NCBI GenBank assembly: GCA_946414025.1
Contig: CAMKMX010000003.1
Span: 1-64,000 of the forward strand
DNA: 64,000 nt
DNA from: an uncultured Fibrobacter sp.
Lineage (GTDB): Bacteria > Fibrobacterota > Fibrobacteria > Fibrobacterales > Fibrobacteraceae
Direction: 5' to 3'
The position numbers and the translations under genes were made by a program. This document shows, one piece after another, positions 12,596-59,488 of this stretch. The number at the start of each line of letters is the position of its first letter. Position 1 is the first letter of the stretch. The notes under the pieces are model-generated. The model had not been told where the DNA came from. It ran no database searches and worked only from the letters and a program-made list of their open reading frames with translations.

Positions 12596-12715
12596 GAGAC
12601 CCACTGTCCTAACCACTGTTTACCGACCACTTTACCTCTTGCGACCAGCGGCCCCTAGATCCTAGCCCCTAAATCCTAGTCCCTAAATCCTACCCCCTAG
12701 ACCCTAGCCTTTCCA
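12596..12715. repeat. Heptamer array with conserved box, running into the end of the fusion gene
   Basis: Read on the minus strand, units GATTTAG, GGACTAG, GGGCTAG, GATCTAG follow the stop of the large fusion gene, then GGGCCGCTGGTCGCAAGAGG (box shared with 28.0, 28.1 and 61.5 kb), then diverged units. The last codons and stop of the gene (GSRG*) are themselves array sequence. Confidence 0.75.
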
Positions 12716-21525: not shown

Positions 21526-22614
21526 CTAGTCCTGCAAGCAACGAACAGAAAGCCCATGCTCCTTACCGTATCTGCCCTGGTCCGCGAAGTCGCTGTCGTA
21601 GCTCATGCCCATTACGATGGCGTAGTCCTCGTCGTACTGCGTGGCACTCCAGAAGGAGGCGATGTCGCCAGCCAAACCAAAGTTGAAGAAAAGGCCGTTC
21701 TTTTTAGCAGTAGCCTCGCCAGCAGGGAGCGCAGAGAAGCCGTAGGCATCCTCGTTGGTGATGCCGCCATAGGCCGTCCAGCCAGTCCGGGCCTTGAGTT
21801 TAGCGCCCGCCGTGAAAAGATCGCCCACCGCAGCGATCAGGGTTTCCCATTCCGTCCGACTCGGCAAGTGCCAACCAGCAGGGCATACACCCTGCACGAT
21901 GTCCGAGCCAAGGTCACAGCTGTTGCCGCAGCCACACTGTTCCTCGGACTTGCCTATGGCAGTAGCCCACGTGTAAAGGCGACCGTACTTGGTGCAATTA
22001 CTAACATCGTCATTGTAGCAGGAACTACCGTACTTCGTTTCATAATTCAGATTCTGAGCCATCCACCATTGATTACCGATTTTTACCGTCTTGTACCTAT
22101 GGCCGTCGCGGGAATCCATCAGGGTCCCGTATTCAATGAGGCTTGAACTAGCAGACGAGCCTTGCGACGAAGACGATTTCACGGAACTGCTGTTTGACTT
22201 GGCAACGGAACTTGAAGAGAATCTCACAGAACTGCTGCTAGATTTTGCAGAATTGCTTGATGAGGACTTCGCGAAACTGCTACTCGACTCTACAGAGCTG
22301 CCGGATGTCGGCATTTCACTGGACGAAAACGACTGGGTGGCTGAATTTCCGGAGGCGTCGGGCCATTCCTCCACGGAATTCCACTGCTTGTCCGCACACT
22401 GGAAATTTTCGCAGGGGTCCGGCTGGAACGCCTGATTGCCTTCGCAATTTTCGGTGCAGCTAGGCAAGTTGTCAACGGGACCGAAGTCGGCAACATTTCC
22501 ATCCGCATTTTTTTCGCCAATCGGCGCGGTCGCAGAATCTCCGCAGGCGATGAGAAACAGTGCAAAAGCACCCACGAAAAAAAATTTTCCCCTAATAAGC
22601 ATTTTTGATAACAT
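21526..22614 (-). CDS. FISUMP-domain lipoprotein 1
   Basis: 362 residues. Lipoprotein signal MLSKMLIRGKFFFVGAFALF-LIAC with Cys24; then a Cys-rich stretch (CTENCEGNQAF, DPCENFQCADKQW) shared with its two neighbours; a Ser linker (SSSSFAKSSSSNSAKSSSSS) at about 110-165; and one FISUMP domain (LMDSRDGHRYKTVKIGNQWW, MAQNLNYETKYG, CPAGWHLPSRTEWETLIAAV, GFSALPAGEAT, SVRCLQD). FISUMP (TIGR02145) is a large paralogous surface family in Fibrobacter of unknown function. ATG 22614 has GGAGGAACCGG in front. Confidence 0.85.
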   Translation of the reverse strand: MLSKMLIRGKFFFVGAFALFLIACGDSATAPIGEKNADGNVADFGPVDNLPSCTENCEGNQAFQPDPCENFQCADKQWNSVEEWPDASGNSATQSFSSSEMPTSGSSVESSSSFAKSSSSNSAKSSSSSVRFSSSSVAKSNSSSVKSSSSQGSSASSSLIEYGTLMDSRDGHRYKTVKIGNQWWMAQNLNYETKYGSSCYNDDVSNCTKYGRLYTWATAIGKSEEQCGCGNSCDLGSDIVQGVCPAGWHLPSRTEWETLIAAVGDLFTAGAKLKARTGWTAYGGITNEDAYGFSALPAGEATAKKNGLFFNFGLAGDIASFWSATQYDEDYAIVMGMSYDSDFADQGRYGKEHGLSVRCLQD

Positions 22615-22648
22615 CCGGTTCCTCCGCACTAAAAAATTCACTATTTCA

Positions 22649-24442
22649 CTAGTTCCTTAGACAACGAACGCTAATAGCGTCGGACTTGAAGTTTTGGGTG
22701 TCCTGGCCCGCACCGTCGTCGCTGTAGTCCAAGTACATGTAGTATGCGTGGCTGTCACCGAACTCAGTGGAACTCCAGAAGTACGCATATTCACTCTCGA
22801 AGATGTAAGTCCCAGTGCGCCCCCATCTGATGCCAGCAGGCAAGGCAGAAAAACCGAAGGCATCATCACCATTTCCGTTACTGTTCCAGCCGCTTTGGCT
22901 CTTGAGCTTGGTTCCAGCCATGGTGAACTTGGTTCCGACCAGCCTGCCGCCCACTGCCGTTAACAGGGGGGTCCAGTCCGATACCGAAGGCAAATGCCAG
23001 CCTTCGGGGCAAACGCCCTTCACTGGTTCGATTGGCGAGCATATATAATTAGAGTAATGCCCGCAGCCCTTGGCGTTCACACTCCATCTGCCCGCACTGT
23101 CCATGGCTGCAGCCCACGTATAAAGTCGGCCGTACTTGGTGCAGTTGCTGGCTTTGTCGTCGTAACAGTAGCTGTTTGCTGTTTTGTAGTTCAGGTTCTG
23201 GGCCATCCACGTCTGAGTGCCGATGGTCACCGTCTTGTACGTCTGGCCGTCGCGGGAATCCGTCAGGGTACCATATTCAACGAGACTTGAACTGGATGAC
23301 GAGCCTTTCGACGAAGACGATATCGCGGAACTGCTGCTTGACCTAGCAACGGAACTTGAAGAGGACTTCGCGGAACTGCTGCTAGATTTTGCAGAACTGC
23401 TACTTGACATTACAGAACTGCTGCTGGATTTTGCAGAACTGCTACTTGACATTACAGAACTGCTGCTGGATTTTGCTGAGATGCTTGAAGAGGACTTCAC
23501 AGAACTGCTGCTAGATGTTGCAGAACTACTTGACACTTTTGTTACGCTGGAACTAGACTGCTGTGAGACGCTAGAAGAGGATTTCTGTTCCGCCGATTCG
23601 CCCTTAACGCAACGAACAGAAAAACCGTCGCTCTTGAGGTCAAGGTTCATGTTCGCTTTGCCAGAGTTGTAGTACAAGTACACGAGGAACACGTTGCCGT
23701 AATTATTCTCCGTAGAACTCCAGAAGTACGCGAACTCACCCTCGCTTGTGAAATCCCCAGCGCCGTTCCTGTAGCCGGCAGGCAACGCCGAGAACGAAAA
23801 GGCGTCCGTTCCGCTTACGCTGTCGCCGCTACTGCTCCAACCGCTTGTCGATTTGAGCATCTTGCCCGCCGTCGATTGACCTCCGACAACAGTGAACAAA
23901 GTTTCAAACTCTTCTTTTGTAGGCAAGTGCCAACCAGAGGGACAAGCAGAAGCCGCTGCACCCCACGTGTAAAGGCGACCGTACTTGGCGCAGTTGCCAG
24001 CATTGTCGTCGTAACAGTAGCTGTTTGCCGTTTCGTAGTTCAGATTCTGGGCCATCCACGTCTGAGTGCCGATGGTCACCGTCTTGTAGGTCTGTCCATC
24101 GCGGGAATCCGTCAGGGTACCGTATTCAATGAGACCTGAACTGGATGACGAGCCACTCGACGAAGATGACTGGGTAGCGAAACTTCCGGGGGCATCGGAC
24201 CTTTCCTCCACGGAATTCCACTGATTGTCCGCACACTGGGAATTTTCGCAGGGGTCCAGCGGGAACGCCTGATTGCCTTCGCAATTTTCGGTGCAGCCGG
24301 GAAGGTCCCCGATCGTCTCCACGCCACCTTCTTCGGGTGTCAAAGCATCCTTGCCTCCACCAGAATCACCACAGGCCGCGAGAAGCAGGGCGGAAACACC
24401 CACGAAAAAAAGCTTCCCCTTGATAAGCATTTTTGACAACAT
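22649..24442 (-). CDS. FISUMP-domain lipoprotein 2 with two FISUMP domains
   Basis: 597 residues. Same signal and Cys-rich N-region as its neighbours (LLAACGDSGGGKD). FISUMP domain A covers about residues 105-290 (GTLTDSRDGQTYKTVTIGTQ ... VRCVKG). A Ser/Lys/Val linker of about 110 residues follows, encoded by tandem repeats (AKSSSSSVMSSSSS). FISUMP domain B fills about 400-597 (CPEGWHLPSVSDWTPLLTAV ... ISVRCLRN). GGAGGAATCGG precedes the ATG. Same unit as neighbours, probably by duplication; domain B has a 15-20 residue insertion (GCGHYSNYICSPIEPVKG). Confidence 0.85.
   Translation of the reverse strand: MLSKMLIKGKLFFVGVSALLLAACGDSGGGKDALTPEEGGVETIGDLPGCTENCEGNQAFPLDPCENSQCADNQWNSVEERSDAPGSFATQSSSSSGSSSSSGLIEYGTLTDSRDGQTYKTVTIGTQTWMAQNLNYETANSYCYDDNAGNCAKYGRLYTWGAAASACPSGWHLPTKEEFETLFTVVGGQSTAGKMLKSTSGWSSSGDSVSGTDAFSFSALPAGYRNGAGDFTSEGEFAYFWSSTENNYGNVFLVYLYYNSGKANMNLDLKSDGFSVRCVKGESAEQKSSSSVSQQSSSSVTKVSSSSATSSSSSVKSSSSISAKSSSSSVMSSSSSAKSSSSSVMSSSSSAKSSSSSAKSSSSSVARSSSSSAISSSSKGSSSSSSLVEYGTLTDSRDGQTYKTVTIGTQTWMAQNLNYKTANSYCYDDKASNCTKYGRLYTWAAAMDSAGRWSVNAKGCGHYSNYICSPIEPVKGVCPEGWHLPSVSDWTPLLTAVGGRLVGTKFTMAGTKLKSQSGWNSNGNGDDAFGFSALPAGIRWGRTGTYIFESEYAYFWSSTEFGDSHAYYMYLDYSDDGAGQDTQNFKSDAISVRCLRN
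23370..23480. repeat. 51-bp tandem repeats coding the Ser linker
   Basis: GAACTGCTGCTGGATTTTGC / AGAACTGCTACTTGACATTAC units alternate two or more times with near identity, coding KSSSSS-type linker on the minus strand. Slippage-prone. Confidence 0.75.
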
Positions 24443-24476
24443 CCGATTCCTCCGCACTAAACATTCCACTGTTTTA

Positions 24477-25517
24477 CTAGTCTTTTAGACAACGAACCGA
24501 GAGCGCGATTGTCTCGTTGATGAAGCTCATGTACGCATAGTCGCCGTATTTGTAGCCCAAGTATACGCCGTACGCGGCGCGGGCATCGTTTACATCGTAC
24601 ACGGGGAGGTCTTCGTATACCGTAGAACTCCAGAAGACTGCGTTGTCGCCTTCGTTGCGGTAGACATCGGCTCTGTAGCCAGCTGGCAAAGCGGAAAACC
24701 CGAAGGCATCCGTTCCGTTTTCACAGCCAGTCCACCCGGACGTAGACTTGAGAACCATGCCCGCAGTTGATTCTCCACCCACCGCCGTGATCAGGGTGTT
24801 CCATTCCGTTTGGGTCGGCAAGTGCCAGCCTTTGGGGCAAATACCATAACGGTTGCCGTCTACTATAAGGTGTGTGTCCATTGCCGAAGTCCACGTATAA
24901 AGCCGACCGTACTTAGTGCAGTTGCTGGTATTGAGACTGTAGCAGTAACTACCGTAGGACGCTTCGTAGTTCAGGTTCTGAGCCATCCACCATTGATTAC
25001 CGATTTTTACCGTCTTGTACGTCTGACCGTCGCGGGAATCCATCAGGGTCCCGTATTCAATGAGGTTTGAACTGGCAAACGAGCCTTGCGACGAAGACGA
25101 TTTCACTGAACTGCTGCTTGACCTGGCTACGGAACTTGAAGAGAACTTAACAGAATTGCTTGATGAGGACTTCGCGAAACTACTACTCGACTCTATAGAG
25201 CTGCCGGATATCGGCAGTTCACTGGACGAAAACGACTGGGTAGCGGAGCTTCCGGGAGCGTCGGGCCATTCCTCCACAGAGTTCCACTGCTTGTCCGCAC
25301 ACTGGGAATTTTCGCAGGGGTCCGGCTGGAACGCCTGATTGCCTTCGCAATTTTCGGTGCAGCTGGGCAAGTTGTCAACGGGACCGAAGTCAGCAATATT
25401 TCCATCCGCATTTTTTTCGCCAGCCGGCGCGGTCGCAGAATCTCCGCAGGCCACGAGAAGCAGGATGGGAACGCCCACGAAAAAAAATTTTCCCCTAACA
25501 AGCGTTTTTGATAACAT
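24477..25517 (-). CDS. FISUMP-domain lipoprotein 3
   Basis: 346 residues. Lipoprotein signal MLSKTLVRGKFFFVGVPILL-LVAC. Cys-rich region and Ser linker nearly identical to lipoprotein 1 (SSSFAKSSSSNSVKFSSSS), then one FISUMP domain (YKTVKIGNQWWMAQNLNYEA, CPKGWHLPTQTEWNTLITAV, GFSALPAGYRADVY, ALSVRCLKD). Start at 25517 is preferred to 25565 by comparison with the two copies; the upstream GGAGAAACCG is the ribosome site. First of the three in transcription order; gaps to the next genes are 34 bp each. Confidence 0.85.
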   Translation of the reverse strand: MLSKTLVRGKFFFVGVPILLLVACGDSATAPAGEKNADGNIADFGPVDNLPSCTENCEGNQAFQPDPCENSQCADKQWNSVEEWPDAPGSSATQSFSSSELPISGSSIESSSSFAKSSSSNSVKFSSSSVARSSSSSVKSSSSQGSFASSNLIEYGTLMDSRDGQTYKTVKIGNQWWMAQNLNYEASYGSYCYSLNTSNCTKYGRLYTWTSAMDTHLIVDGNRYGICPKGWHLPTQTEWNTLITAVGGESTAGMVLKSTSGWTGCENGTDAFGFSALPAGYRADVYRNEGDNAVFWSSTVYEDLPVYDVNDARAAYGVYLGYKYGDYAYMSFINETIALSVRCLKD

Positions 25518-25551
25518 TCGGTTTCTCCGCATTGAACATTTCGCCACTATT

Positions 25552-25974
25552 TTATAAGCTTTCAAAAATTTTTTTTATATCCTGATTTTCAAGAGGTTGA
25601 GGTTTCATTTCGACATTTCGCTCATTGTAAACAGCGTCCTCGTCCAAAGATGGATAAAAGAACCATTTTCCGTTAAAACGTTCAAAATAGGATTGTCCCA
25701 TTATTTCAGACAGGTTATTGTTAGATGTTTTTATTTGGATACGGTCAGGAAAATCCATAAAGGCGAACGGGTCAATATAAAGTTCCAACCATTTCTCGTC
25801 TAATTGGAATCTTGTTTTCTTGTAATTTTTTCTTCCGTTGTCATATACATTTTCCCAAACAAATCCTTCGGGCAAGTTTACCGCAAATTCTTTGAAACTA
25901 GTATTTTCCCTGGCTTCATTGAACAATTTTGTCAAATCATTTAAATTCGAAATTTGCCTTTCTATGTTAATCAT
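25552..25974 (-). CDS. Unknown protein (AT-rich gene pair, second gene)
   Basis: 140 residues, soluble and acidic, with aromatic-rich stretches (FVWENVYDNGRKNYKKTRF, WLELYIDPFAFMDFPDR, FERFNGKWFFYPSLDEDAVY). No family recognised. The ATG overlaps the stop of the upstream membrane protein by 8 bp, so the two are coupled. Clearly lower G+C than the neighbours, suggesting recent acquisition. Confidence 0.7.
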   Translation of the reverse strand: MINIERQISNLNDLTKLFNEARENTSFKEFAVNLPEGFVWENVYDNGRKNYKKTRFQLDEKWLELYIDPFAFMDFPDRIQIKTSNNNLSEIMGQSYFERFNGKWFFYPSLDEDAVYNERNVEMKPQPLENQDIKKIFESL

Positions 25975-27845: not shown

Positions 27846-27902
27846 TGTCATCCTCGCTGTCATTCTGGAGCGCAGCGATAGAATCACGAGGATCCGCTTG
27901 AA
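27845..27902. repeat. Nested palindromic repeat (inverted copy of 12.5 kb element)
   Basis: TGTCATCCTCGCTGTCATTC ... GCGATAGAATCACGAGGATC, outer and inner stems as in the 12.5 kb copy. Confidence 0.8.
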
Positions 27903-27904
27903 GT

Positions 27905-28020
27905 GTTAATGGTTAGGGGTTAGGGGTTAGGATTTAGGGGTTAGGATTTAGGGGTTAGGATTTAGGGGTTAGGATTTAGGGGCTAGGATCTAGGGGCTAG
28001 GATCTAGGGGTCGCTGGACA
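27905..28020. repeat. TTAGGGG/TTAGGAT heptamer array
   Basis: About fifteen 7-bp units alternate TTAGGGG, TTAGGAT, and later CTAGGGG, CTAGGAT. It ends in the shared box GGGGTCGCTGGACACAAGATG (28007-28027); a second copy of the box (AGGGCCGCTGGTCACAAGACG) lies at 28111-28131, and a GTCATCCTGACG...AGGATCC palindrome at about 28043-28076. Confidence 0.85.
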
Positions 28021-28169
28021 CAAGATGCTTTGAAGCGCGAGGGATGTCATCCTGACGCCGGAGGCGGAAGGATCCAGTCCGTAGGAATAGTTGCACAGTG
28101 GTTAGTGATTAGGGCCGCTGGTCACAAGACGATTTGATGGTTAGGAAAGTTTTTTCGAAGGAGTAAGAC

Positions 28170-32053: not shown

Positions 32054-35000
32054 ATGAAAAAAATGTGGAAGGGCATTTTGTCCCTATTCGTCGGGATTGC
32101 AATTATCAGTTGCGCCGGTACTGATTCTTCGGCACAAAAGAAGGGACATGATAATTCGAACCTGGTCAAGGCAGGGACGCCTGCCGCGGACAGCCTTGTC
32201 TCTGGGATGACTGAATTCGCCCGTTCAATATTCAAGGGAACTTTCGATTCCATTCCGGGGGATTATTACTACCACGTGACCGACGGCAGGATTGACTCGC
32301 TGTTCAAAAAGGAAGGCGGACAGTACAAGCCTATCATTTCTATCGACTACGACTTCATCGTCGGGCAAAGCGGCTTTGAACTAAAAAAAAACAATTACAG
32401 TTACTTTATAAAGGAAGGCGTTTTAACACAAGAGGTTGATTTCCCAAAATATTCCAAAGCATATTGGAGCAACGGGAAAACAAAAGCCATAATGACAGGT
32501 CTCCTTTATAGGGACGACCAAGGCGTTTTTCAAGTAGATAGCGGGCTTTCCGAAATATATTTTGAAAACGGGAAAATCAAAGAGCAGAACGACTGGAAGG
32601 ACAAGCAGCTTATTGTAAGCAAAGTATGGAACGAGAATGGTATATTGATAACAGAATTAGATTTCCCTAAATATGTCAAGGCGTATTGGGACAACGGAAA
32701 GCCCAAAGCTGTAATGACAGGAGTCCTTTATAGAAGTAATCAGAGCAATATCGCGATGGATAGCGGGCACTCGGAAATTTATTTTGAAAACGGGAAAATT
32801 AATCAGCAAAATGACTGGAAAGGCAAAAAACTTATTGCACAAAAAGAATGGAACGAAAAAGGAACTTTGACAAAAGAATTTGAATTCCCAAAATATTACA
32901 AGGAATATTGTGATGACGGGAAGCCAAAAATCGTATCGACAGGACTCCTTTACAAAGATGACCAAGGCAATTTCTCTGTGGATAGCGGACACTCGGAAAT
33001 ATATTTTGAAAACGGAAAAATCAAAGAACAGAACGAATGGAAAGACAAGCAGGTTGTTGCAAACAAGACATGGAACGAAAACGGGGTGTTGACACTTGAT
33101 ATAGATTTCCCTAAATATGCCAAGATGTATTGGGACAACGGAAAACCCAAAGAGGTATTGACCGGACTCCTTTATAAAAATGATCGAGGTTCCATCCGTG
33201 CGGACAGCGGGCATTCCGAAATATATTTTGAAAACGGGCAAATCAAAGAGCAGAACGACTGGAAGGATAAGCAGATCATTGCAAGTAAGCTGTGGAATGA
33301 AAACGGGGTGTTGATAACAGATTTTATTTCCTACAAATATGCCAAGATATACTGGGATAACGGGAATTTAAAGGGTGTAATAACAGGTTCTCTTTATGTT
33401 GATGATCGAGGTAATTTCGTAGTGGACAGCGGTCACACGGAATCCTATTTTGAAAATGGAAAGATTAGAGAGCAAATCGATTGGAAAGACAAACAGGTTG
33501 TTGCAAACAAGACATGGAACGAAAACGGGGTGTTGACACTTGATATAGATTTCCCTAAATATGCCAAGATGTATTGGGACAACGGAAAACCAAAAGAGGT
33601 ATTGACCGGACTCCTTTATAAAAACGATCAAGGCTTCATCCGCGTGGACAGCGGGCATTCCGAAATATATTTTGAAAACGGGAAATTCAACGAAAAAAAT
33701 GAATGGAAGGACAAACTGCTTATTGCAAGCAAAGTATGGAACGAGAATGGAATATTGATAAAAGAATTAGATTTCCCTAAATATGCCAGGATGTATTGGG
33801 ACAACGGAAAACCAAAAGAGGTATTGTCCGGGCTCCTTTATAAAAATGATCGAGGCAATTTCGAATTGGACAGCGGGCATTCCGAAATTTATTTCGAAAA
33901 TGGAAAAATCAAAGAACAAAATGACTGGAAGAATAAGCAACCTGTGGCAAGCAAGCAATGGAACGAAAACGGAGTATTGATAAAAGAATTAGATTTTCCA
34001 AAATCTATCAAAACATACTGGAACAACGGAAAGCCCAAAAGCGTAGCGATAGGTCTTCTTTATAAAGATGATCAGGGCGACATTCGCGTGGACAGCGGGC
34101 GCTCGGATATATATTTCGAAAATGGCAAAATCAAAGAGCAGAACGATTGGAAGGACAAACAATTCGTTGCACAAAAAATATGGAACGAAAGAGGGGTGAT
34201 AACATTTGATCTAAATTTCCCCAAATATGTCAAGGAATACTGGGACAATGGAAAGCCAAAAAGCGTAGCAATAGGTCTCCTTTATAGAGTTGATCAAGGC
34301 CCTATCAAAGTGGATAGCGGACATTCCGAAATATATTTCGAAAACGGAAAAATCAAACAACAATGCGACTGGAAGAATAAGCAACCTATAGCGAACAAGC
34401 AATGGAACGAAAACGGCGTACTATTAGTAGAACTAAATTTTCCAAAGTCTTTCAAAGCATACTGGGACAACGGAAAGCCTAAGGCTATATTGACAGGAGT
34501 CCTTTATAGGGATAATCAAGGCAATATCGAGGTGGATAGCGGGCATTCCGAAATATATTTTGAAAATGGACAAATTAAAGAGCAGAACGACTGGAAAAAC
34601 AAGCAGATTGTTACGAATAAAACATGGAACGAAAACGGCGTATTGACAGTTGATATAGATTTCCCAAAACATATCAAAGGATATTGGGATAACGGGAAAT
34701 TAAAAGGGATAATGACAGGTTTGCTTTATAGAGATGACCAAGGAAACTTCCATTTAGATAGTGGACACTCGGAAGCATATTTCGAAAATGGACAAATCAA
34801 AGAGCAGAACGACTGGAAGGACAAGCAGATTGTTGCAAACAAAACATGGAACGAAAAAGGGGTATTGACAGTTGATATAAATTTACCAAAATATTCCAAA
34901 TGGTATTGGGATGACGGAAGATTAGAACAAATTGCCACAGGTGTCCTTTATAGAGACGACCAAGGCGTCATCCGCGTGGACAGCGGGCGCTCGGAGGTAT

Positions 35001-36274
35001 ATTTCGAAAACGGAAAAATTAAAGAACAAAACGACTGGAAGGACAAACAGCCCACTGTAAGCAAGCGATGGAACGAAAACGGAATACTAACAGTAGATTT
35101 TATTTTCCCAAAATATTATGAATTATATTGGGACAACGGAAATATAAAAGAAATAGCAACAGGACTCCTTTATAGAGACGACAAAGGCAATTTTGAAGTG
35201 GATAGCGGACACACGGAGACTTATTTCGAAAATGGAGGAATTCAGCGAATATCCGTCTGTAATAACAAACAACTCATTGCATACAAGCAATGGAACGAAA
35301 ACGGAACCGTAAAGAAGGAAGGTGTCGTAGCAAAAGGATTTCATAAGGAATACTTCCCTAACGGCAAAATCTCTGTGGATATTTCAGGAAAATTCCACTA
35401 CGATGACAATTGGGGCATAATTCTCGAAAACGCCATCGATAAACAATGGAACGAAAACGGGATTCTAACAGATGAAATCCTTTTCCCAAAATACGCAAAG
35501 TTTTATTCCGACAGCGGAGCCCTTGATTCTGAATTGGAGGGAACCTTATACTACGATGAAGAGAAGGAAATCCAGGTACAGGATGGCACAAAAAAATGGT
35601 ATCGCGATAACGGGAAATTATGGAGCCTTCGAATCTATAAGGAGAAAAAGTTAGTTAGTAAAAAGAAGTGGTATAAAAACGGAAATCTAGACGAGGAAGG
35701 GGACGCATCAAAAGGATTTTATAGGAGTTACCATTCGGACGGTAAACTCTATATGAATGTATTAGGCAAATTTCATTATAACAACAAAGGATTCTTTGAG
35801 AACATAATCTTGGAGAATGCCACCCAAAAGTGGTGGGGCACAAATGGGAATCTTAAAAAAGAGATTGTTTTCCCGAAATATGTAAAAGAATATTCCGATA
35901 ACGGAACCCTTGTCAAAGAACTAGAGGGAACGTTGTATTATGACGACCAGGATGAAATCCAGGTACAGGACGGCTTCAAAAAAGAATATTCCGATAAAGG
36001 GAAATTAACGGTACAAAAAAATTACAAAGGAAAAAAGCTTGTCCGCAAGACCGTATGGAGAGAAAACGGCAATATATTCATTTCTGCGGAGCTGCCAGAC
36101 CGCTACAGGGAATTTTACAATGATGGAAAAATCAGAACCGAAGTTATCGGAGTCATCGTCGAAGAAGACGACTCGTTCAGAATAAAGGACGGAACATACA
36201 AAGAATACGATTTCAACGGCAAAGTTACCTACACCGCAACCTACGAGGATTTTCAGAGAATTTCTGAAAAGTGA
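32054..36274 (+). CDS. Giant lipoprotein with 13+ 74-residue MORN-like repeats
   Basis: 1406 residues. MKKMWKGILSLFVGIAIISC is a lipoprotein signal (Cys20). The middle carries 13 units of about 74 residues (222 bp), each with YFENGKIKEQNDWKDKQ, KTWNENGVL, FPKYAKMYWDNGKPKEV, TGLLYKNDQG and DSGHSEI, which fit the MORN_2/YwqK-type pattern. A C-terminal part (about 1060-1406) has diverged repeats with AKFYSDSGAL, NGNLKKEI, FYNDGKIRTEV. Two segments at about 33050-33180 and 33494-33620 are almost identical at DNA level, exactly two periods apart. Presumably surface-exposed beta-solenoid; ligand unknown. AGGAGGAGTGTCAC precedes the ATG. Lower G+C than the housekeeping genes. Confidence 0.8.
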   Translation: MKKMWKGILSLFVGIAIISCAGTDSSAQKKGHDNSNLVKAGTPAADSLVSGMTEFARSIFKGTFDSIPGDYYYHVTDGRIDSLFKKEGGQYKPIISIDYDFIVGQSGFELKKNNYSYFIKEGVLTQEVDFPKYSKAYWSNGKTKAIMTGLLYRDDQGVFQVDSGLSEIYFENGKIKEQNDWKDKQLIVSKVWNENGILITELDFPKYVKAYWDNGKPKAVMTGVLYRSNQSNIAMDSGHSEIYFENGKINQQNDWKGKKLIAQKEWNEKGTLTKEFEFPKYYKEYCDDGKPKIVSTGLLYKDDQGNFSVDSGHSEIYFENGKIKEQNEWKDKQVVANKTWNENGVLTLDIDFPKYAKMYWDNGKPKEVLTGLLYKNDRGSIRADSGHSEIYFENGQIKEQNDWKDKQIIASKLWNENGVLITDFISYKYAKIYWDNGNLKGVITGSLYVDDRGNFVVDSGHTESYFENGKIREQIDWKDKQVVANKTWNENGVLTLDIDFPKYAKMYWDNGKPKEVLTGLLYKNDQGFIRVDSGHSEIYFENGKFNEKNEWKDKLLIASKVWNENGILIKELDFPKYARMYWDNGKPKEVLSGLLYKNDRGNFELDSGHSEIYFENGKIKEQNDWKNKQPVASKQWNENGVLIKELDFPKSIKTYWNNGKPKSVAIGLLYKDDQGDIRVDSGRSDIYFENGKIKEQNDWKDKQFVAQKIWNERGVITFDLNFPKYVKEYWDNGKPKSVAIGLLYRVDQGPIKVDSGHSEIYFENGKIKQQCDWKNKQPIANKQWNENGVLLVELNFPKSFKAYWDNGKPKAILTGVLYRDNQGNIEVDSGHSEIYFENGQIKEQNDWKNKQIVTNKTWNENGVLTVDIDFPKHIKGYWDNGKLKGIMTGLLYRDDQGNFHLDSGHSEAYFENGQIKEQNDWKDKQIVANKTWNEKGVLTVDINLPKYSKWYWDDGRLEQIATGVLYRDDQGVIRVDSGRSEVYFENGKIKEQNDWKDKQPTVSKRWNENGILTVDFIFPKYYELYWDNGNIKEIATGLLYRDDKGNFEVDSGHTETYFENGGIQRISVCNNKQLIAYKQWNENGTVKKEGVVAKGFHKEYFPNGKISVDISGKFHYDDNWGIILENAIDKQWNENGILTDEILFPKYAKFYSDSGALDSELEGTLYYDEEKEIQVQDGTKKWYRDNGKLWSLRIYKEKKLVSKKKWYKNGNLDEEGDASKGFYRSYHSDGKLYMNVLGKFHYNNKGFFENIILENATQKWWGTNGNLKKEIVFPKYVKEYSDNGTLVKELEGTLYYDDQDEIQVQDGFKKEYSDKGKLTVQKNYKGKKLVRKTVWRENGNIFISAELPDRYREFYNDGKIRTEVIGVIVEEDDSFRIKDGTYKEYDFNGKVTYTATYEDFQRISEK

Positions 36275-52252: not shown

Positions 52253-52298
52253 TCTCGTCATCCTCGCGCAGGCGAGGATCCACTATCATCTTGGCGGG
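52253..52298. repeat. GTCATCCTCGCG palindrome, copy 1
   Basis: GTCATCCTCGCGCAGGCGAG then GATCCACTATCAT; repeated almost exactly at 52399-52444, 146 bp away. Confidence 0.85.
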
Positions 52299-52398: not shown

Positions 52399-52444
52399 TC
52401 TCGTCATCCTCGCGCAGGCGAGGATCCACTATCATTTTAGCGGG
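52399..52444. repeat. GTCATCCTCGCG palindrome, copy 2
   Basis: Near-exact direct copy of 52253-52298. Confidence 0.85.
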
Positions 52445-52823: not shown

Positions 52824-53741
52824 CTAGTATTTTTGAGTTTCTTTTAACACTTCTTCCAAGGTAAAATCCTCCTTGCTGAAAAAGAACATCTTTTTCCCGA
52901 GGTCTTTTAGGGATGCCCCAAAATGATAGGCCTTGTCATCAATAAATAGAAAGCGATCGTGAGTGTTCGTGTTCGGGAAGATTTCTATGGGGCAATCGGC
53001 ATACTGCGCGTTATATTTCTGGAGATCCAGTTCAAAAATCTTGCTCTTGTCGTAGGTGTAAATAGTCACCGAGACGCCCTTTTTCCTCTTGAGCATCATT
53101 AAAAGGGTCGTTTCGTCCACATAGTTATCCACAAGGACAATGCGTCTTTGCGCCTGGCGGATAAGACCGCACGCAAATGCGTAGGCATCGAACTCCTGAC
53201 TTTCGTAGAAAATGCCCTTGGTCTTGAGCTCTCCGCGATCCATGGCCTCAAAGAGAGAATCAATTTTGTGGTCATGATCAAGCAAGCGAGCGTCTTGTTG
53301 CAAAATTTTAGATTCAACACTAGACAAGCGATTAACTATACCGCCATTGCCTGCCATGATGTGCCGCAACTGTACGAAAGCATCCATTATAGCGAGAGAC
53401 ACCTTAATTGCCGTTTTGGTACGCAAAACAGCTGAAAGCATTGCCACTCCCTGCTCAGTAAAGGCAAACGGCATCTTACGCAAGCCCATTTTCTCAGAAT
53501 TGGACATCACAATTTGTGATTTCCAATTTGAAAATTCCAGCTCTGTCAACTGAAAACAGTTCCTTTCCGGGAACCTTTCCATATTTCGCTTGACGGCCTG
53601 ATTTATCGCCCTAGTTTCTACACCATAAAGCGTCGCTAGATCGCGGTCAAGCAACACCTGCTTGTCACGAATGACCAGAATCATCTTTTCTACGCCCGAT
53701 TCTTCCAACAGGTTCGGGACAGCAATCTCTTTTTCATTCAT
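52824..53741 (-). CDS. ORF6N-domain protein, copy A
   Basis: 305 residues. Residues 15-105 (VIRDKQVLLDRDLATLYGVE ... FTEQGVAMLSAVLRTKTAI) are an ORF6N/KilA-N-type DNA-binding domain seen in phage antirepressors and Bacteroidetes chromosomes. A short coiled coil (IVNRLSSVESKILQQDARLL) follows, then a C-terminal domain (RRIVLVDNYVDETTLLMML, THDRFLFIDDKAYHFGASLK) that resembles a PLD-like fold with HxK changed to HxR (HDR). Role unknown, probably DNA-related. GGAGTAGAAG precedes the ATG. Confidence 0.8.
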   Translation of the reverse strand: MNEKEIAVPNLLEESGVEKMILVIRDKQVLLDRDLATLYGVETRAINQAVKRNMERFPERNCFQLTELEFSNWKSQIVMSNSEKMGLRKMPFAFTEQGVAMLSAVLRTKTAIKVSLAIMDAFVQLRHIMAGNGGIVNRLSSVESKILQQDARLLDHDHKIDSLFEAMDRGELKTKGIFYESQEFDAYAFACGLIRQAQRRIVLVDNYVDETTLLMMLKRKKGVSVTIYTYDKSKIFELDLQKYNAQYADCPIEIFPNTNTHDRFLFIDDKAYHFGASLKDLGKKMFFFSKEDFTLEEVLKETQKY

Positions 53742-53915
53742 CTTCTACTCCTTCCGCCTACAAGCAAAAAAGGCGGGGCAAAGTGTTCTCGATGCAAATA
53801 TACATTCCTCGGATATCACATTATGACAACCAGCGATTTTCACGGAATTTTTGGTATTTTTGAAGAAAAACGACCCCTGCAGGCGATTGAATTCTGCATT
53901 GTCACCTTGTAATGC
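53742..53915 (-). repeat. Duplicated upstream region of ORF6N copy A
   Basis: Similar to 54858-55020: hairpin CCGCC/GGCGG, AAAGTGTTCTCGA, TATACATTCCTCGGAT, TCACATTATGACAA. Together with its gene it forms one tandem duplication unit. Confidence 0.75.
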
Positions 53916-54857
53916 CTAGCTTTCTTTTTCTGCCTGAATTTTCTGCGATTCCTTCAACACTTCGTCCAACGTGAAATCTTCCTGCGTAAAGAAGAACGTG
54001 TTCTTGCCCAAATCCTTGAGCGAAGCCCCAAAGTGGTAAGCCGTATCGTCTATGAATAGGAATCGGTCGTGCATTCCGTAACTTGGCAAGACTTGCATCG
54101 GGCTGTCGGGATATTGTTCGTTGTAAGTGGCTAGGTCCATTTCAAGGACTTTGCTTTTGTCATAGGTGTAGATTGTCACGGAAACGCCTTTTTCCCGCTT
54201 GAGCATCATGGCCAGAGTCTTCTCGGTCACGTACCTGTCGACAAGTACGATTCTTTTCTTTGCCTGGCGAATCAGGTTGCAGACAAATACATAGGCATCG
54301 AACTCCTGGTTGTTGTAAAATAAACCCTTGGTTTTGAGCTCGCCACGGTCCATCGCCTCGAAAAGTGAGTCGATTTTATGATCATGATCTAAAAGACGGG
54401 CGTCTTGTTCCAAATCTTTTGCTTCGACATTAGAAAGACGATTGACGATTCCGCCATTTTGATATAAATACTGCCGCATGGCGACAAACGCATCCATGAT
54501 TGCGATGGATACATTCACGGCAACCTTGCTTTTCAGGACGGATGAAAGCATGGCAAAGCCCTGTTCCGTAAAAACATAGGGCTTAAACCTGTCTCCGCCC
54601 CAACTTGAAATCACATTTTGTGATTTCAAGTTGTCTAATTCACTTTTTTCCAATTGGAAACAATATCTGTCGGGGAAACGTTCTATATTTCGCTTGACGG
54701 CTTGATTTATCGCCCTAGTTTCAACACCGTATAATGTTGCAATATCGCGATCAAGCAACACCTGCTTGCCACGAATGACTCGAATCATCTTTTCTACGCC
54801 CGACTCCATGAGCGGGTTAGGTGCGATATCATCCGTTTTTTCGGTCTTTCTAGCCAT
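53916..54857 (-). CDS. ORF6N-domain protein, copy B
   Basis: 313 residues, paralogue of copy A over the full length (VIRGKQVLLDRDIATLYGVE, LLDHDHKIDSLFEAMDRGEL, MHDRFLFIDDTAYHFGASLK). The N-terminus is slightly longer (MARKTEKTDDIAPNPLMESG). The 160 bp before each copy are also similar, including CCGCC-tacaagcaaaaaa-GGCGG hairpin, so the promoter was duplicated with the gene. Same GGAGTAGAAG ribosome site. Confidence 0.8.
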   Translation of the reverse strand: MARKTEKTDDIAPNPLMESGVEKMIRVIRGKQVLLDRDIATLYGVETRAINQAVKRNIERFPDRYCFQLEKSELDNLKSQNVISSWGGDRFKPYVFTEQGFAMLSSVLKSKVAVNVSIAIMDAFVAMRQYLYQNGGIVNRLSNVEAKDLEQDARLLDHDHKIDSLFEAMDRGELKTKGLFYNNQEFDAYVFVCNLIRQAKKRIVLVDRYVTEKTLAMMLKREKGVSVTIYTYDKSKVLEMDLATYNEQYPDSPMQVLPSYGMHDRFLFIDDTAYHFGASLKDLGKNTFFFTQEDFTLDEVLKESQKIQAEKES

Positions 54858-55100
54858 CTTCTACTCCAATCCGCCTACAAGCAAAAAAGGCGGGGTAAAG
54901 TGTTCTCGACGCAAATATACATTCCTCGGATGTCACATTATGACAATCGGCGATTTTCGCGGAAATTTTGGCAATTTTTGGGGAAAATCGACCCCTGTAG
55001 GCGGTTGAATTCTACATTTTTACGCTTTTTTCTCGCCTTCCGGGCGTGGCGTCACCTTTTGACACCGGAATAATTTATATTTTGGGTGAAAATAGAGTTT

Positions 55101-55676: not shown

Positions 55677-56684
55677 ATGGCACAGAAAAAAGCCGCAACA
55701 ACCGAAGCCAAAATTCAAGAATTTCATCTCTTTGCTGGAATTGGTGGTGGTATTTATGGAGGTGAACTATTGGGTCATGAATGTTGCGCAGGCGTTGAAA
55801 TCAGTGATTTTTGTCAGAAAGTTTTGAAACAGCGTCAAAAAGACGGATGGATGAATCCGTTTGAAATTTACGGAGATCTTCGCGCATTAAATGGCAAGGA
55901 ATTCAAAGGAAAATTTGATGTCCTGTGCGGAGGGTTTCCCTGTCAGGCTTTCAGTACTGCGGCCCATGGTAAAAATATCGCAGAGAAAAACCTTTGGGAT
56001 GAAATGTTGCGCTTCGCCAAAGAATCTGACGCTCCGGTTGTTTTCGGTGAAAATGTTGTATTACGCGCTATTTCTAAAGCTAAGGAAGATTTAGAGTCCA
56101 TTGGATATAAGGTCCATTTTTGTCGTTTGAGCTGTTCTAACCTTGGAGCAGATCATCAGCGTAACCGTTTCTGGTTGTTGGCGGTCAAGAATCAGAAAGT
56201 TTTTGAAAAGATAAAAGACCACATCATTAGCCTTCCCAAATTTAAAGGTTCTTACTGGAGTAAGAATCCTGATGACCTTGGTGTAGATGTTCCTATTGCG
56301 GACCGCCGAGAACAACTGAAAGGAGTCGGAAACGCCCAATCGCCTTTTGTTGCCGCAAGTGCATTTAGGATTTTGGTAAATCGCCACATTGAAAATGGAA
56401 CGTATACAGAAGATGTTTCGGAAAAAGAAATATCCCAGGTTTTTGAAAAACAGAAAACTTGGATAAGGAAAACCTATGGTGAAGAGATGGGGTTAGTTCA
56501 TACGCCAACTACGATGGCAAACTACTCAGCCCCATCAATGATGAAACATCAAGGTTGTAGAAATTTCAAAGAGGTTTTTGGAAAACCGGCTCCAAAGAAT
56601 GCTGAATACTTGATGGGATTCCCGTTGGGTGCAAGTTCCCCTGAACCGCAGAAAAAAGAGAATCTTAAAAAGTGGGGCGCGTGA
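55677..56684 (+). CDS. DNA cytosine-5 methyltransferase of LlaJI-like system
   Basis: 335 residues. Motif I FHLFAGIGGG (17-26), motif IV GGFPCQAFS with catalytic Cys89, motif VI FGENVV (123-128), motif VIII QRNRFWLLA (161-169), motif X KGVGNAQSPFVAA (215-227). The space between VIII and X is only about 45 residues, so no normal target-recognition domain fits; instead LVHTPTTMANYSAPSMMK and YLMGFPLG lie after motif X (273-318). Protects the host from the downstream nuclease. Ribosome site CGGAGCGAAAAG. TGATG overlap with the next gene. Confidence 0.9.
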   Translation: MAQKKAATTEAKIQEFHLFAGIGGGIYGGELLGHECCAGVEISDFCQKVLKQRQKDGWMNPFEIYGDLRALNGKEFKGKFDVLCGGFPCQAFSTAAHGKNIAEKNLWDEMLRFAKESDAPVVFGENVVLRAISKAKEDLESIGYKVHFCRLSCSNLGADHQRNRFWLLAVKNQKVFEKIKDHIISLPKFKGSYWSKNPDDLGVDVPIADRREQLKGVGNAQSPFVAASAFRILVNRHIENGTYTEDVSEKEISQVFEKQKTWIRKTYGEEMGLVHTPTTMANYSAPSMMKHQGCRNFKEVFGKPAPKNAEYLMGFPLGASSPEPQKKENLKKWGA

Positions 56685-58135
56685 TGTTTGGAAAATACGA
56701 TGCAGATAGATTATTTAGTCAATATGGATTTAATCAAAAACAAAAAAATGATGAGACCATCATCAATACAGCGAAAGCATTTGATTCCAATGAATATATT
56801 GGCTCAAGCCGAAACAGATTGAATAGCGGAATTTTACGCAATCAATTTTTACTACTTTTAGATTCTTTAAATGGCAAACCTTTGTCAAATCAAACTTTTT
56901 CAGGGGTTACACAGTTACGAGCTGATCAATATGTATTAGTTCATCAAAATCGTGAAAGTGAATTATGGGAAGTTTATCAAGGAAATTCCCCAAATAATCC
57001 CAGAAAGATTTACGACGCAATAACTTTAAAAAATTTTTTTGACAGTATTCAAGAGGTTGTTGACACAACCATCAATGATGTGAAAAAAGATGATTCAGGG
57101 ACAGATAATGGCCTTGGCTCTAGTTTACCTAATTTCACCCTTTCCCAAATCATCTACTACGGTGTTCCTGGCTGCGGTAAGAGCAATAAAATCAGAGAGC
57201 AACTGAAGGACGTTCCTGAGAAAAATAAGGTTCGTGTCGTGTTCCACCCAGAATACACCAACGCCGAATTCATCGGGCAAATCTTGCCGAAAGTCAACGG
57301 CCATGTCACCTACGAATTTACTCCCGGGCCGTTTACGCAAATTATCAAGCGGGCTTATCTCAATCCCAACGAACAATTCTACCTAGTTATCGAAGAAATC
57401 AACCGCGGTAATGCGGCCGCCATTTTCGGCGATACCTTCCAGTTGTTGGATAGGCTCAAGGCTGGCGAAATAGACTCTCTCGGCAACGATCCGGCAAATG
57501 CGGCGGTAAACACGTTTACAGAAGGCTGGAGCCAGTATTTTGTCCAGAACGATGATGTGAACGCCTATATTCGAGGAACTGAAAATAGCATTCAGATTGG
57601 GAATATTCGCTTTGATTCGAATACGGCTATCCGCTTGCCGCCTAACCTTTCCATCTTGGCGACGATGAACACTAGCGACCAGAATGTGTTCACCTTGGAT
57701 AATGCCTTCCAGCGTCGTTTTGACATGGAACTGGTCCGCAACGAATTTGACCTCACTAAGCCTGCCGTCAATGCTCAGTACAACGCAGAAATTGACGATA
57801 CCGGTATTAAATGGGGGCAATTCTGGGGATGGATCAACGCCAAAATTACGGCCACCCTCAAGGGTCTTTCCAGCACTGAAGACAAGCGGCTTGGAGTCTG
57901 GTTCGTGAGCAACGTGGGCGGCATTATAGACGACAAGGTCTTTGCCGAAAAGGTCCTGAAGTTCCTGTGGGATGACGTTTTCAAGTTCAAGCGTCCGCAA
58001 GTATTTGCCGAAGGGATTGATACTCTGGAAAAGCTGATTAACTTCTTTGAAAATCCTCCTGAAGGGAAAGAACGCTTTAACGTTTTCAAGGACAAGGCGA
58101 ATCTTGTTGCATTTGTAGCATCGCCTACGCTGTAA
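56684..58135 (+). CDS. McrB-like AAA+ GTPase (LlaJI.R1-like)
   Basis: 483 residues. An N-terminal DNA-binding part (1-150) is unlike McrB and AT-rich. Walker A GVPGCGKS (160-167), Walker B FYLVIEEINRGNAA (232-245), MNTSDQ (328-333), and arginine finger region FQRRF (342-346) define the McrB family. With its partner it would translocate DNA using GTP and cut. ATG overlaps the methyltransferase stop by one base. Confidence 0.9.
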   Translation: MFGKYDADRLFSQYGFNQKQKNDETIINTAKAFDSNEYIGSSRNRLNSGILRNQFLLLLDSLNGKPLSNQTFSGVTQLRADQYVLVHQNRESELWEVYQGNSPNNPRKIYDAITLKNFFDSIQEVVDTTINDVKKDDSGTDNGLGSSLPNFTLSQIIYYGVPGCGKSNKIREQLKDVPEKNKVRVVFHPEYTNAEFIGQILPKVNGHVTYEFTPGPFTQIIKRAYLNPNEQFYLVIEEINRGNAAAIFGDTFQLLDRLKAGEIDSLGNDPANAAVNTFTEGWSQYFVQNDDVNAYIRGTENSIQIGNIRFDSNTAIRLPPNLSILATMNTSDQNVFTLDNAFQRRFDMELVRNEFDLTKPAVNAQYNAEIDDTGIKWGQFWGWINAKITATLKGLSSTEDKRLGVWFVSNVGGIIDDKVFAEKVLKFLWDDVFKFKRPQVFAEGIDTLEKLINFFENPPEGKERFNVFKDKANLVAFVASPTL

Positions 58136-58141
58136 TCCTTG

Positions 58142-59488
58142 ATGCAAAAGCTAAACGAAATATGTTCCTGCGAATCCAAGGCTAATTCGGAGACCGAGTT
58201 TGTCGGCATTCGTTGTGAAAAAACAAAGGAAGGTGGCGCGCTAGAAACAAGTATCATCTTTCCCTTGGGATATTTCAAGGATGACACGGCTTTGCGCGAG
58301 CTCCCCGAAGAAGAATTACGGGAATGCGCCGTCAATCTTTTTACGGTACTTTCTGACCCTTCGCTGCAGGAACAGATTCATCAGGATTCGTCCATTTCCA
58401 CATTTGCGGAAGAACATGGCGAATCTGAATTTCCGATGGTTTCGTACTTGAATGTTATCCGGAATTTTCTCGATTTTGGCTACCTTGACGAAAAGGAAAT
58501 TCTGTACAAAAAGGGCGCAAACGGGAAGATCAGTTGGGGACGGACAATCAAGGCCGTGCAACCTGTCATTACTGAAAACGAACAGAATCTTGTGTACCTG
58601 GATTTTGTCGCCCGTAAAGTCAGTTATAACGAAGATACGCTCATTACGCAAGTCCACAAATTCTGCGTTCATGACGCTCTTGTGAAACTCGGATTTTTGT
58701 TTGGCATAGACCCATCCGAAGAGCCGCATTTGGATTTTGATTATGACCTGTTCTGTAACGCAATTCATTCCAAGCTTGCGAAAACGTTTAACGACCGCGA
58801 TTTACGCTTGCTCGCCGACTTGGCTCGAATTGTGGAGTATCTTGCCAGGCATAAAACCGAAGACGGAAAAACGGCAGACGATTTTTATTTCGGAGTAAAG
58901 AAGTTCGCCCCCGTGTGGGAAGCGATGGTGGATAGAATATTCGGAAGGTTGCCGCAGGGAGTTGCCAAGGATAAATTTAATCCGCACTGCGAATGGGATT
59001 TGAGTTCTGGAGTACGTGGGTATGAAAATACCAATTATGCCATGCGTCCCGATACGATTATGGCACTTTCATCTGGCATATTCGTTATTGACGCGAAATA
59101 CTACAAGTTTGGATTGACGCGTAACCCGATGGATTTGCCCTCTTCTGGATCAATCTGCAAGCAAATCGCGTATGCGGAGTATGTGGAACAATTCATGCAA
59201 GAAAAGGAGATCCCCGCCTTCGCGGGGATGACATCGGGCGACATTTACAATGCGTTTATTATGCCATATTGCGCGGATGATGAAGTGGACTCTATCGCTT
59301 CGCTCCAGAGTGACAATTTGTCATATAAGATGCAATTTATCGGACATTGTTCTGGCAATTGGAAAGATCCCGATGCTCGTCCATACCACAAGATAGCGGG
59401 CATCCTCCTCGATATGAAATCTGTCATGCAGAATTACGCAAACAACCCCACCGCGCAAAACGAACTCGCGGGGTTGACAGCATTGTGA
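58142..59488 (+). CDS. LlaJI/McrC-like PD-(D/E)xK restriction endonuclease
   Basis: 448 residues. NYAMRPDTIMALSSGIFVID followed by AKYYKFG gives Pro303-Asp304 and Asp317-Ala-Lys319 of the PD-(D/E)xK nuclease fold, then KQIAYAEYVEQ. Overall it fits the RE_LlaJI family (LlaJI.R2). Upstream parts (1-250) are likely R1-binding. Two palindromic repeats lie in frame: IPAFAGMT (357-364) and DSIASLQSD (383-391). ATG 58142 follows the McrB-like stop by 6 bp; the track TTG at 58139 is less likely. Confidence 0.85.
   Translation: MQKLNEICSCESKANSETEFVGIRCEKTKEGGALETSIIFPLGYFKDDTALRELPEEELRECAVNLFTVLSDPSLQEQIHQDSSISTFAEEHGESEFPMVSYLNVIRNFLDFGYLDEKEILYKKGANGKISWGRTIKAVQPVITENEQNLVYLDFVARKVSYNEDTLITQVHKFCVHDALVKLGFLFGIDPSEEPHLDFDYDLFCNAIHSKLAKTFNDRDLRLLADLARIVEYLARHKTEDGKTADDFYFGVKKFAPVWEAMVDRIFGRLPQGVAKDKFNPHCEWDLSSGVRGYENTNYAMRPDTIMALSSGIFVIDAKYYKFGLTRNPMDLPSSGSICKQIAYAEYVEQFMQEKEIPAFAGMTSGDIYNAFIMPYCADDEVDSIASLQSDNLSYKMQFIGHCSGNWKDPDARPYHKIAGILLDMKSVMQNYANNPTAQNELAGLTAL
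59209..59232. repeat. Palindromic repeat inside the nuclease gene (IPAFAGMT type)
   Basis: GATCCCCGCCTTCGCGGGGA then TGAC: stem ATCCCCGC/GCGGGGAT. Same design as intergenic GATCCTCGCC...GCGAGGATGAC copies. Confidence 0.85.
59288..59314. repeat. Second palindromic repeat inside the nuclease gene
   Basis: GACTCTATCGCTTCGCTCCA then GAGTGAC. Intergenic form has ATTCT/AGAAT; here ACTCT/AGAGT, paired changes that keep the stem. Confidence 0.85.

Follow-up and report, generated by a model that had tools for sequence, protein, structure and literature searches.

CGTC-tagged REPs were described by Di Nocera, De Gregorio and Rocco in 2013 (PMC3733652). Each consists of an unpaired CGTC or TGTC tag, a stem of 8-9 bp in which the first pair is A-T and the second is T-A, a loop of 4-5 bases, and a tail that is mostly CCA. 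They occur in high copy number, with a predominance of head-to-head dimers. Most are intergenic and some lie within ORFs, with uvrA, uvrB and ligase genes among the hosts; GTAG REPs are found in genes too, including repair genes. In recB of two Xanthomonas, different REPs are present at about one site. Di Nocera and others found no dedicated transposase for the CGTC REPs, and RPE-6 and RPE-4 of Rickettsia are classed as CGTC-1 and CGTC-4 REPs, respectively (PMC3733652). The RPEs of Ogata and others were ~150 bp long as first reported, as cited in PMC10969869 and PMC3733652. Most discussion of coding palindromes concerns Rickettsia and scattered REP cases. The word "Fibrobacter" is absent from PMC3733652, and no report of such elements for this genus was found in the papers searched. 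A described counterpart of the host gene considered here is that of R2.LlaJI, in which a PD...D/ExK motif has been described (PMC1459862).

The DNA analyzed, termed the window, is a stretch of 64,000 nucleotides from an uncultured Fibrobacter sp. (assembly GCA_946414025.1, contig CAMKMX010000003.1). The draft genome around it comprises 2.52 Mb in 56 contigs and is 82% complete, and its close relatives, judging from record titles, are rumen and gut Fibrobacter. An initial annotation of the window had reported two palindromic repeats, separated by 55 bp and with compensatory changes in their arms, inserted in frame into a LlaJI-like nuclease.

Results

The restriction-modification operon

A LlaJI-like restriction-modification operon occupies positions 55677-59488 of the window, with all genes on the plus strand. 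The first gene (55677-56684) encodes a C5 cytosine DNA methyltransferase (Pfam DNA_methylase, 4.8e-28) and the second (56672-58135) an R1-like restriction subunit of the McrB type, an AAA/GTPase (Pfam AAA_5, 9.6e-12; PADLOC REase_II PDLC03547, 4.2e-66). The third (58142-59488) carries both elements in frame and encodes an R2-like, McrC-like nuclease of the PD-(D/E)xK kind (Pfam RE_LlaJI, 2.4e-29; PADLOC, 2.1e-52; Foldseek to McrC 6ut6, 4.6e-9). This gene is an ORF of 448 codons with no internal stop and is open throughout, so the report of two in-frame palindromes in an intact gene is borne out. The combination of PD...D/ExK in R2 with neighboring genes for an R1 AAA subunit and a C5 methyltransferase makes the operon one of the LlaJI type, with recognition and cleavage of DNA as its putative activity.

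Among 56 aligned sequences, P303 is nearly conserved and D304, D317 and K319 are fully conserved, followed by K340-Q341. The codons for these invariant columns (D304, D317-x-K319, then the K340-Q341 helix; 59051-59164, plus strand) lie directly upstream of element 1, which agrees with the annotated placement of the palindromes just after the catalytic core of a LlaJI.R2-like nuclease. A sequence search of solved structures with the nuclease returned nothing meaningful, and a fold search with its model matched McrC (PDB) and a YdjA-YdiS model. The AlphaFold model (mean pLDDT 85) places element 1 after helix 335-355 and before strand 368-376, and element 2 in the next loop, which is modeled at low confidence (block 381-390, pLDDT 53). 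The model thus has loops at both element sites.

Pairs of element-bearing nucleases gave dN/dS values of 0.076-0.283 (Nei-Gojobori counts), with 0.076 obtained for the window nuclease and a G036 homologue that has both elements in common with it. By these counts the nuclease gene is under purifying selection, and together with the intact operon they argue against pseudogene status.

Several other repeats are present in the window. Just upstream of the restriction operon, positions 52975-54987 hold two tandem copies ~1.1 kb apart that are 72-89% identical. At 32400-35300 a 222-bp coding-like unit is repeated in tandem twelve or thirteen times, its copies being 70-80% alike, and 21950-25600 contains several direct repeats that are long and diverged and include leucine-rich sub-repeats of 21/45 bp.

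Sequence and copies of the two elements

Element 1 (59203-59233, minus strand) is a CGTC-type REP, recognized by its copy pattern and by a loop that is absent or different in homologues. The palindrome itself is ATCCCCGCCTTCGCGGGGATGACA at 59210-59233, with a conserved AAAGGAG ahead of it, from 59203. In minus-strand order the element consists of the tag TGTC, the 8-bp stem ATCCCCGC, a 4-nt loop, the returning stem and the tail CTC. It codes for KEIPAFAGMT (residues 355-364), of which EIPAFAGMT (E356-T364) is encoded by the palindrome. The likeness to Rickettsia elements that had been suggested is apt, since this is the layout of the CGTC-1 REPs, the class assigned to RPE-6 (PMC3733652).

Element 2 (59288-59315, minus strand) is a longer, interrupted palindrome, GACTCTATCGCTTCGCTCCAGAGTGACA, which belongs to the CTCT/AGAG subtype of a TTCT/AGAA family and codes for DSIASLQSD (D383-D391). 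It is common only to two G036 homologues, and a different element is present here in other genomes. Its minus-strand layout, TGTC-ACTCT...AGAGT-CCA, has the TGTC tag and CCA tail of a CGTC REP but not the continuous 8-9 bp stem with an AT start; five outer pairs (ACTCT/AGAGT here, usually ATTCT/AGAAT) are interrupted before the inner part. Within the source genome the CTCT/AGAG form is unique, and it is found outside the nuclease gene in G059, G009 and G026. The spacing of the two elements was measured as 54 bp, one less than annotated.

The element 1 pattern has 89 copies in the source genome (≤3 mismatches) and the element 2 pattern has 13. These numbers are not due to chance, because the same patterns read backwards gave 0 and 0 matches in this genome. 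For element 1, 93 copies (≤4 mismatches) were read in 771 kb around nearly all known copies. Each of the 8 stem pairs is canonical in 91-93 of these, with covariation (pair 5 is C-G in 50 and T-A in 42); the first pair is A-T in 91/93 and the second T-A in 93/93. The tag is TGTC in 66/93, as in the window nuclease, and CGTC in 27/93, and the 4-base loop is CTNC in most copies. Two sub-families, CCCCG/CGGGG (36/93) and CCTCG/CGAGG (35), are of about equal size genome-wide. Their tails are CTC in the former, which is also the tail of the window copy, and CCG, CTG or CCA in the latter.

Relative to intergenic copies, the nuclease elements had been said to carry paired changes (CCTCG/CGAGG to CCCCG/CGGGG and ATTCT/AGAAT to ACTCT/AGAGT). 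The letters are as stated, but the term "compensatory" does not hold. Since the CCCCG and CTCT variants both pre-exist as sub-families, the paired differences reflect stem conservation in the family and not the repair of a stem in the nuclease gene. Compensatory evolution within this gene was rejected on these grounds, and coding copies also decay uncompensated (the second G036 copy and G081).

The family reference in the window is an intergenic nested copy at 27846-27899 (plus strand), in which an element-2-type hairpin lies within element-1-type arms; the nested relation of the two elements to an intergenic family is therefore as described. Two further intergenic copies of the element 1 family, both CCTCG/CGAGG, lie at 52257-52279 and 52403-52425 (minus strand). 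Arrays of a 14-bp TTAGGATTTAGGGG-like unit occur at 614-669, 12637-12712 and 27899-28024, the third of which adjoins the nested palindrome. Hairpin-like DNA near 59449-59484 was considered as an additional insert and rejected, as it is a conserved tail in homologues.

Only ~14 of the 93 located copies of element 1 are within genes, and the family is mainly intergenic. Coding DNA makes up a far larger share of the genome, a difference that would be expected if most insertions into genes were removed. The codon-score gene caller reached 67% of the sample and did not call the window nuclease, so the intragenic counts were taken from located copies and Pfam.

Empty and variously occupied loops in nuclease homologues

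Thirty homologues were aligned at first, and about fifteen were added. Loop 1, which connects the KQxAYAEYVE helix to the YNAF strand, has 22 residues in the window nuclease. Where no element is recognizable it mostly has 10-17 residues (e.g., in G068, G055, G011, G024, the third G036 copy and G007), in keeping with the prediction that homologues would lack the inserted residues. No frameshift was found in the gene, nor does any homologue clearly without the palindrome carry the element residues.

In Fibrobacter homologues, loop 1 contains one of five element types (A-E), in frame, or nothing, and its flanks are otherwise alignable. Type A (EIPAFAGMT) is present twice in G036 and in G006 and G008, and in decayed form in G081; in contig L105, also Fibrobacter, a second palindrome is nested in the loop of a type A element. 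Type B (DSIATPSASLQND) is present in G060 and G070. Type C (DPSTxLHxAQDD) was found in G069, G003, G032 and G056, and decayed in G033; type D (DSSNATHSQND) in G076, G074, G072 and G077, with a variant in G017; and type E (RHLEQSEGSS..STPQNDD) in G037. Types B, C and D have the flanks ETHWKEIL ... LPKPIYNAF in common; the neighborhood was thus retained as the element changed. The C and D families are dispersed in 22/22 genomes searched, with 0 control matches.

Other loops are occupied as well. Loop 2 is the site of element 2 in the window nuclease and in both type A homologues of G036; in other genomes it is occupied by elements of the IAAVAVLPRND type. Elements of the IAAASPRNDN type are present in G074, G072 and G037 at a third loop, which lies between RPDTIM and VYILDSKYY. 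On a tree of the C-terminal core (97 conserved columns, many open forks), there are at least 13 changes of element type and 6 changes between occupied and empty, and at least 4 of these 6 are forced by well-supported branches. On a tree with so few columns and so many open forks, the changes may be independent insertions or in-place replacements.

In Treponema and Clostridia homologues the loop varies in length with no evident palindromes, which indicates that the site is a naturally tolerant loop. All element-bearing nucleases with a named record are from metagenome assemblies; two homologues are encoded by an isolate, F. intestinalis ATCC 43854, and neither contains elements. Separately, the N- and C-terminal halves of LlaJI.R2 homologues recombine (L012, L018, L022 and L040 versus L011 and L013-L017), with L022 and L040 combining a different N-terminal type with a C-terminal half close to that of L012.

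Elements in other genes

In the source genome, copies of the element 1 type are in frame in the genes for UvrB (two), HrpB helicase (two) and patatin (two). Further in-frame copies were located in genes for a GFO/IDH/MocA oxidoreductase, CobA-HemD (reverse orientation), a UvrA-like ATPase, a THUMP-like methyltransferase, a GluRS-like synthetase, TilS and an RNA m5U methyltransferase (RumA-like). Of the other families, type C is represented in LigA, and type F in the gene for a periplasmic binding protein, by one element each.

Among ~30 Fibrobacter genomes, different repeat-type peptides occupy one place, in frame, in the LigA loop that directly precedes the KxDG motif, and likewise in the linker of UvrB; they include peptides of the DPSTPLRSAQDDK type. 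UvrB of G065, a 99% identical protein, has the same element as the source genome plus a 24-nt hairpin nested in frame in its loop, and in G032 the UvrB linker contains a CGTC copy in reverse orientation. Hairpins nested in hairpin loops within reading frames, with intact outer arms, were seen in UvrB at L242 and L244-L246, in the nuclease at L105, and at L058. Values of dN/dS for UvrB and LigA were 0.04-0.10. LigA and TilS are essential in well-studied bacteria, and for this reason translation and tolerance of their inserts are very probable. The idea that one reading frame is preferred was considered and rejected: KEIPAxAGMT is the main peptide in the first six genes, but a fuller tally includes GDPRLRGDD and reverse-strand frames. 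The coding elements are not peculiar to the nuclease, and the phenomenon is far wider.

Mobility and possible exchange at defence loci

No match to RAYT (PF01797) was found in the source genome, which is 82% complete. PF01797 genes are present in 37/91 genomes searched, and four RAYT loci examined in relatives have no flanking tagged palindromes. The arrangement of RAYT-associated REPs, in which the RAYT gene is flanked by repeats, was thus seen neither in the source genome at this completeness nor at the four loci, and mobilization by RAYT is not supported.

The 3' part of the nuclease gene is found alone in ~16 genomes (short matches), mostly behind other genes. Four of these orphan ends start exactly at the loop-1 element, three of them behind the same type III restriction gene and one behind an HNH gene; others break at conserved YHKI codons. 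Orphan llaJIR2 ends at L054/L284 (G065), L055 (G033), L057 (G059), L058 (G047) and L276-L282 are behind restriction, HNH or unknown genes. They look like a defence-module exchange slot with a fixed right border. The ends that start at the element suggest that intragenic repeats may act as recombination breakpoints.

Discussion

Our best explanation, which we regard as very likely, is that dispersed REP-like repeats (CGTC/TGTC-tagged), selfish or neutral, landed in a coding gene, were translated, were kept where the frame and a tolerant loop allowed, and were then replaced there. Copies would arise genome-wide, and most of those hitting genes would be lost by selection. Surviving genic copies would be open in the host frame and would lie in a length-tolerant, probably solvent-exposed loop; in the nuclease, these sites would be the loop that follows the helix bearing the conserved K-Q, together with the loop after that. 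In an occupied loop, related elements may then replace the resident, nest in it or swap its inner part, whether by recombination or by repeated insertion, or the resident may decay, and orthologues would consequently show different elements at one place. The elements are presumably neutral in a nuclease that is probably made and working.

More tentatively, certain loops of Fibrobacter core and defence proteins may be landing or exchange sites at which palindromic cassettes are swapped in frame repeatedly by recombination between hairpin ends, in an ongoing process that would diversify the proteins and leave breakpoints for the exchange of entire restriction modules. We consider this bolder proposal doubtful.

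Four other explanations were weighed against that of dispersed repeats tolerated in coding loops. The covariation of the stem across the family, and the retention of arms while inner loops change, also within coding genes, would fit a function in nucleic acid, with the mRNA or DNA hairpin kept for translation pausing, attenuation, mRNA stability, or gyrase or protein binding, and the protein merely tolerating it. Stems are nevertheless broken in coding copies of G036 (second gene) and G081, and both window-gene variants belong to pre-existing sub-families, so their paired stems need not reflect upkeep within that gene; we judge such a function unlikely. A recruited function at the protein level, in which the inserted peptides tune the nuclease (specificity, R1 contact, toxicity) and are kept by positive selection, is quite improbable. 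Unrelated peptides of ~9-27 residues occupy one loop beside the same catalytic core, some decayed (KLPACEGMT) and some absent, and the same peptides are found in unrelated proteins (UvrB, HrpB, LigA), although the element loops adjoin the core and many homologues keep some loop 1 element, with the frame kept as the peptides vary.

It is also very unlikely that recombination is the main driver, that is, that elements in defence genes persist by giving homology for exchange of restriction modules. The four orphan ends that start at the loop-1 element, where two distinct modules have taken the place of the upstream part, are what this account would lead one to expect, but other orphan ends break elsewhere, and elements are equally present in the core genes LigA and UvrB, which leaves exchange as a consequence at most. 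Finally, although the window comes from a draft genome, an artefact (chance palindromes, a pseudogene or misassembly) is extremely improbable given 0 control matches, an open frame, invariant catalytic residues, a dN/dS of 0.076 versus G036, and the same elements in independent assemblies.

Under the favored explanation of landing, tolerance and replacement, Fibrobacter is a natural laboratory for selfish DNA becoming protein, with related bacteria filling one loop with different elements. Within one genus, some 80 genomes show empty, occupied, replaced, nested and decayed states in orthologous LlaJI.R2, LigA (before KxDG) and UvrB-linker loops of near relatives. The route by which short selfish repeats come to lie in reading frames, be it new insertion or exchange in place, thereby becomes open to direct testing. 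For annotation, KEIPAFAGMT or DPSTxLRSAQDD peptides in such proteins should be read as translated repeats and not as motifs.

Comparison with known systems

Intragenic palindromes in Rickettsia and REPs in genes (Di Nocera 2013, PMC3733652) are established. The present case extends them to another host phylum, enlarges the scale on which single loops are occupied in series, and adds nesting inside reading frames.

The operon resembles the LlaJI system (PMC1459862) in the McrB-like AAA domain of R1, the PD...D/ExK motif of R2 and the adjoining C5 methyltransferase; it differs in that palindromic elements are present at as many as three loops of the Fibrobacter R2. The Lactococcus and Fibrobacter R2 proteins were compared through the Pfam family only. 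RAYT-mobilized GTAG REPs and REPINs (PMC3116915, PMC8266576) are likewise short, tagged palindromes in many copies and probably non-autonomous, but the Fibrobacter tag is TGTC or CGTC, not GTAG, and no RAYT was found in the source genome.

The Fibrobacter elements behave like Rickettsia coding palindromes in being dispersed, in frame in unrelated genes, and matched by empty sites in homologues. As cited in PMC10969869 and PMC3733652, RPEs are also palindromic repeats that are in frame and translated in unrelated genes. As first reported they are ~150 bp long, as compared with about 24-80 bp in Fibrobacter, in a comparison made by layout only, through PMC3733652. Rickettsia is intracellular with a reduced genome, whereas Fibrobacter is a free-living gut bacterium. 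Element 1 and the CGTC REPs (PMC3733652) have in common the tag, an 8-bp stem starting with A-T and T-A, a 4-nt loop, high copy number, a mainly intergenic location, and some copies inside ORFs, those of DNA repair genes included. Unlike in those REPs, the stems of element 2 and of types C-F are longer and interrupted. Across the genus, moreover, a single loop of a single gene family is occupied by several families of elements, and the Fibrobacter elements nest within each other in coding DNA.
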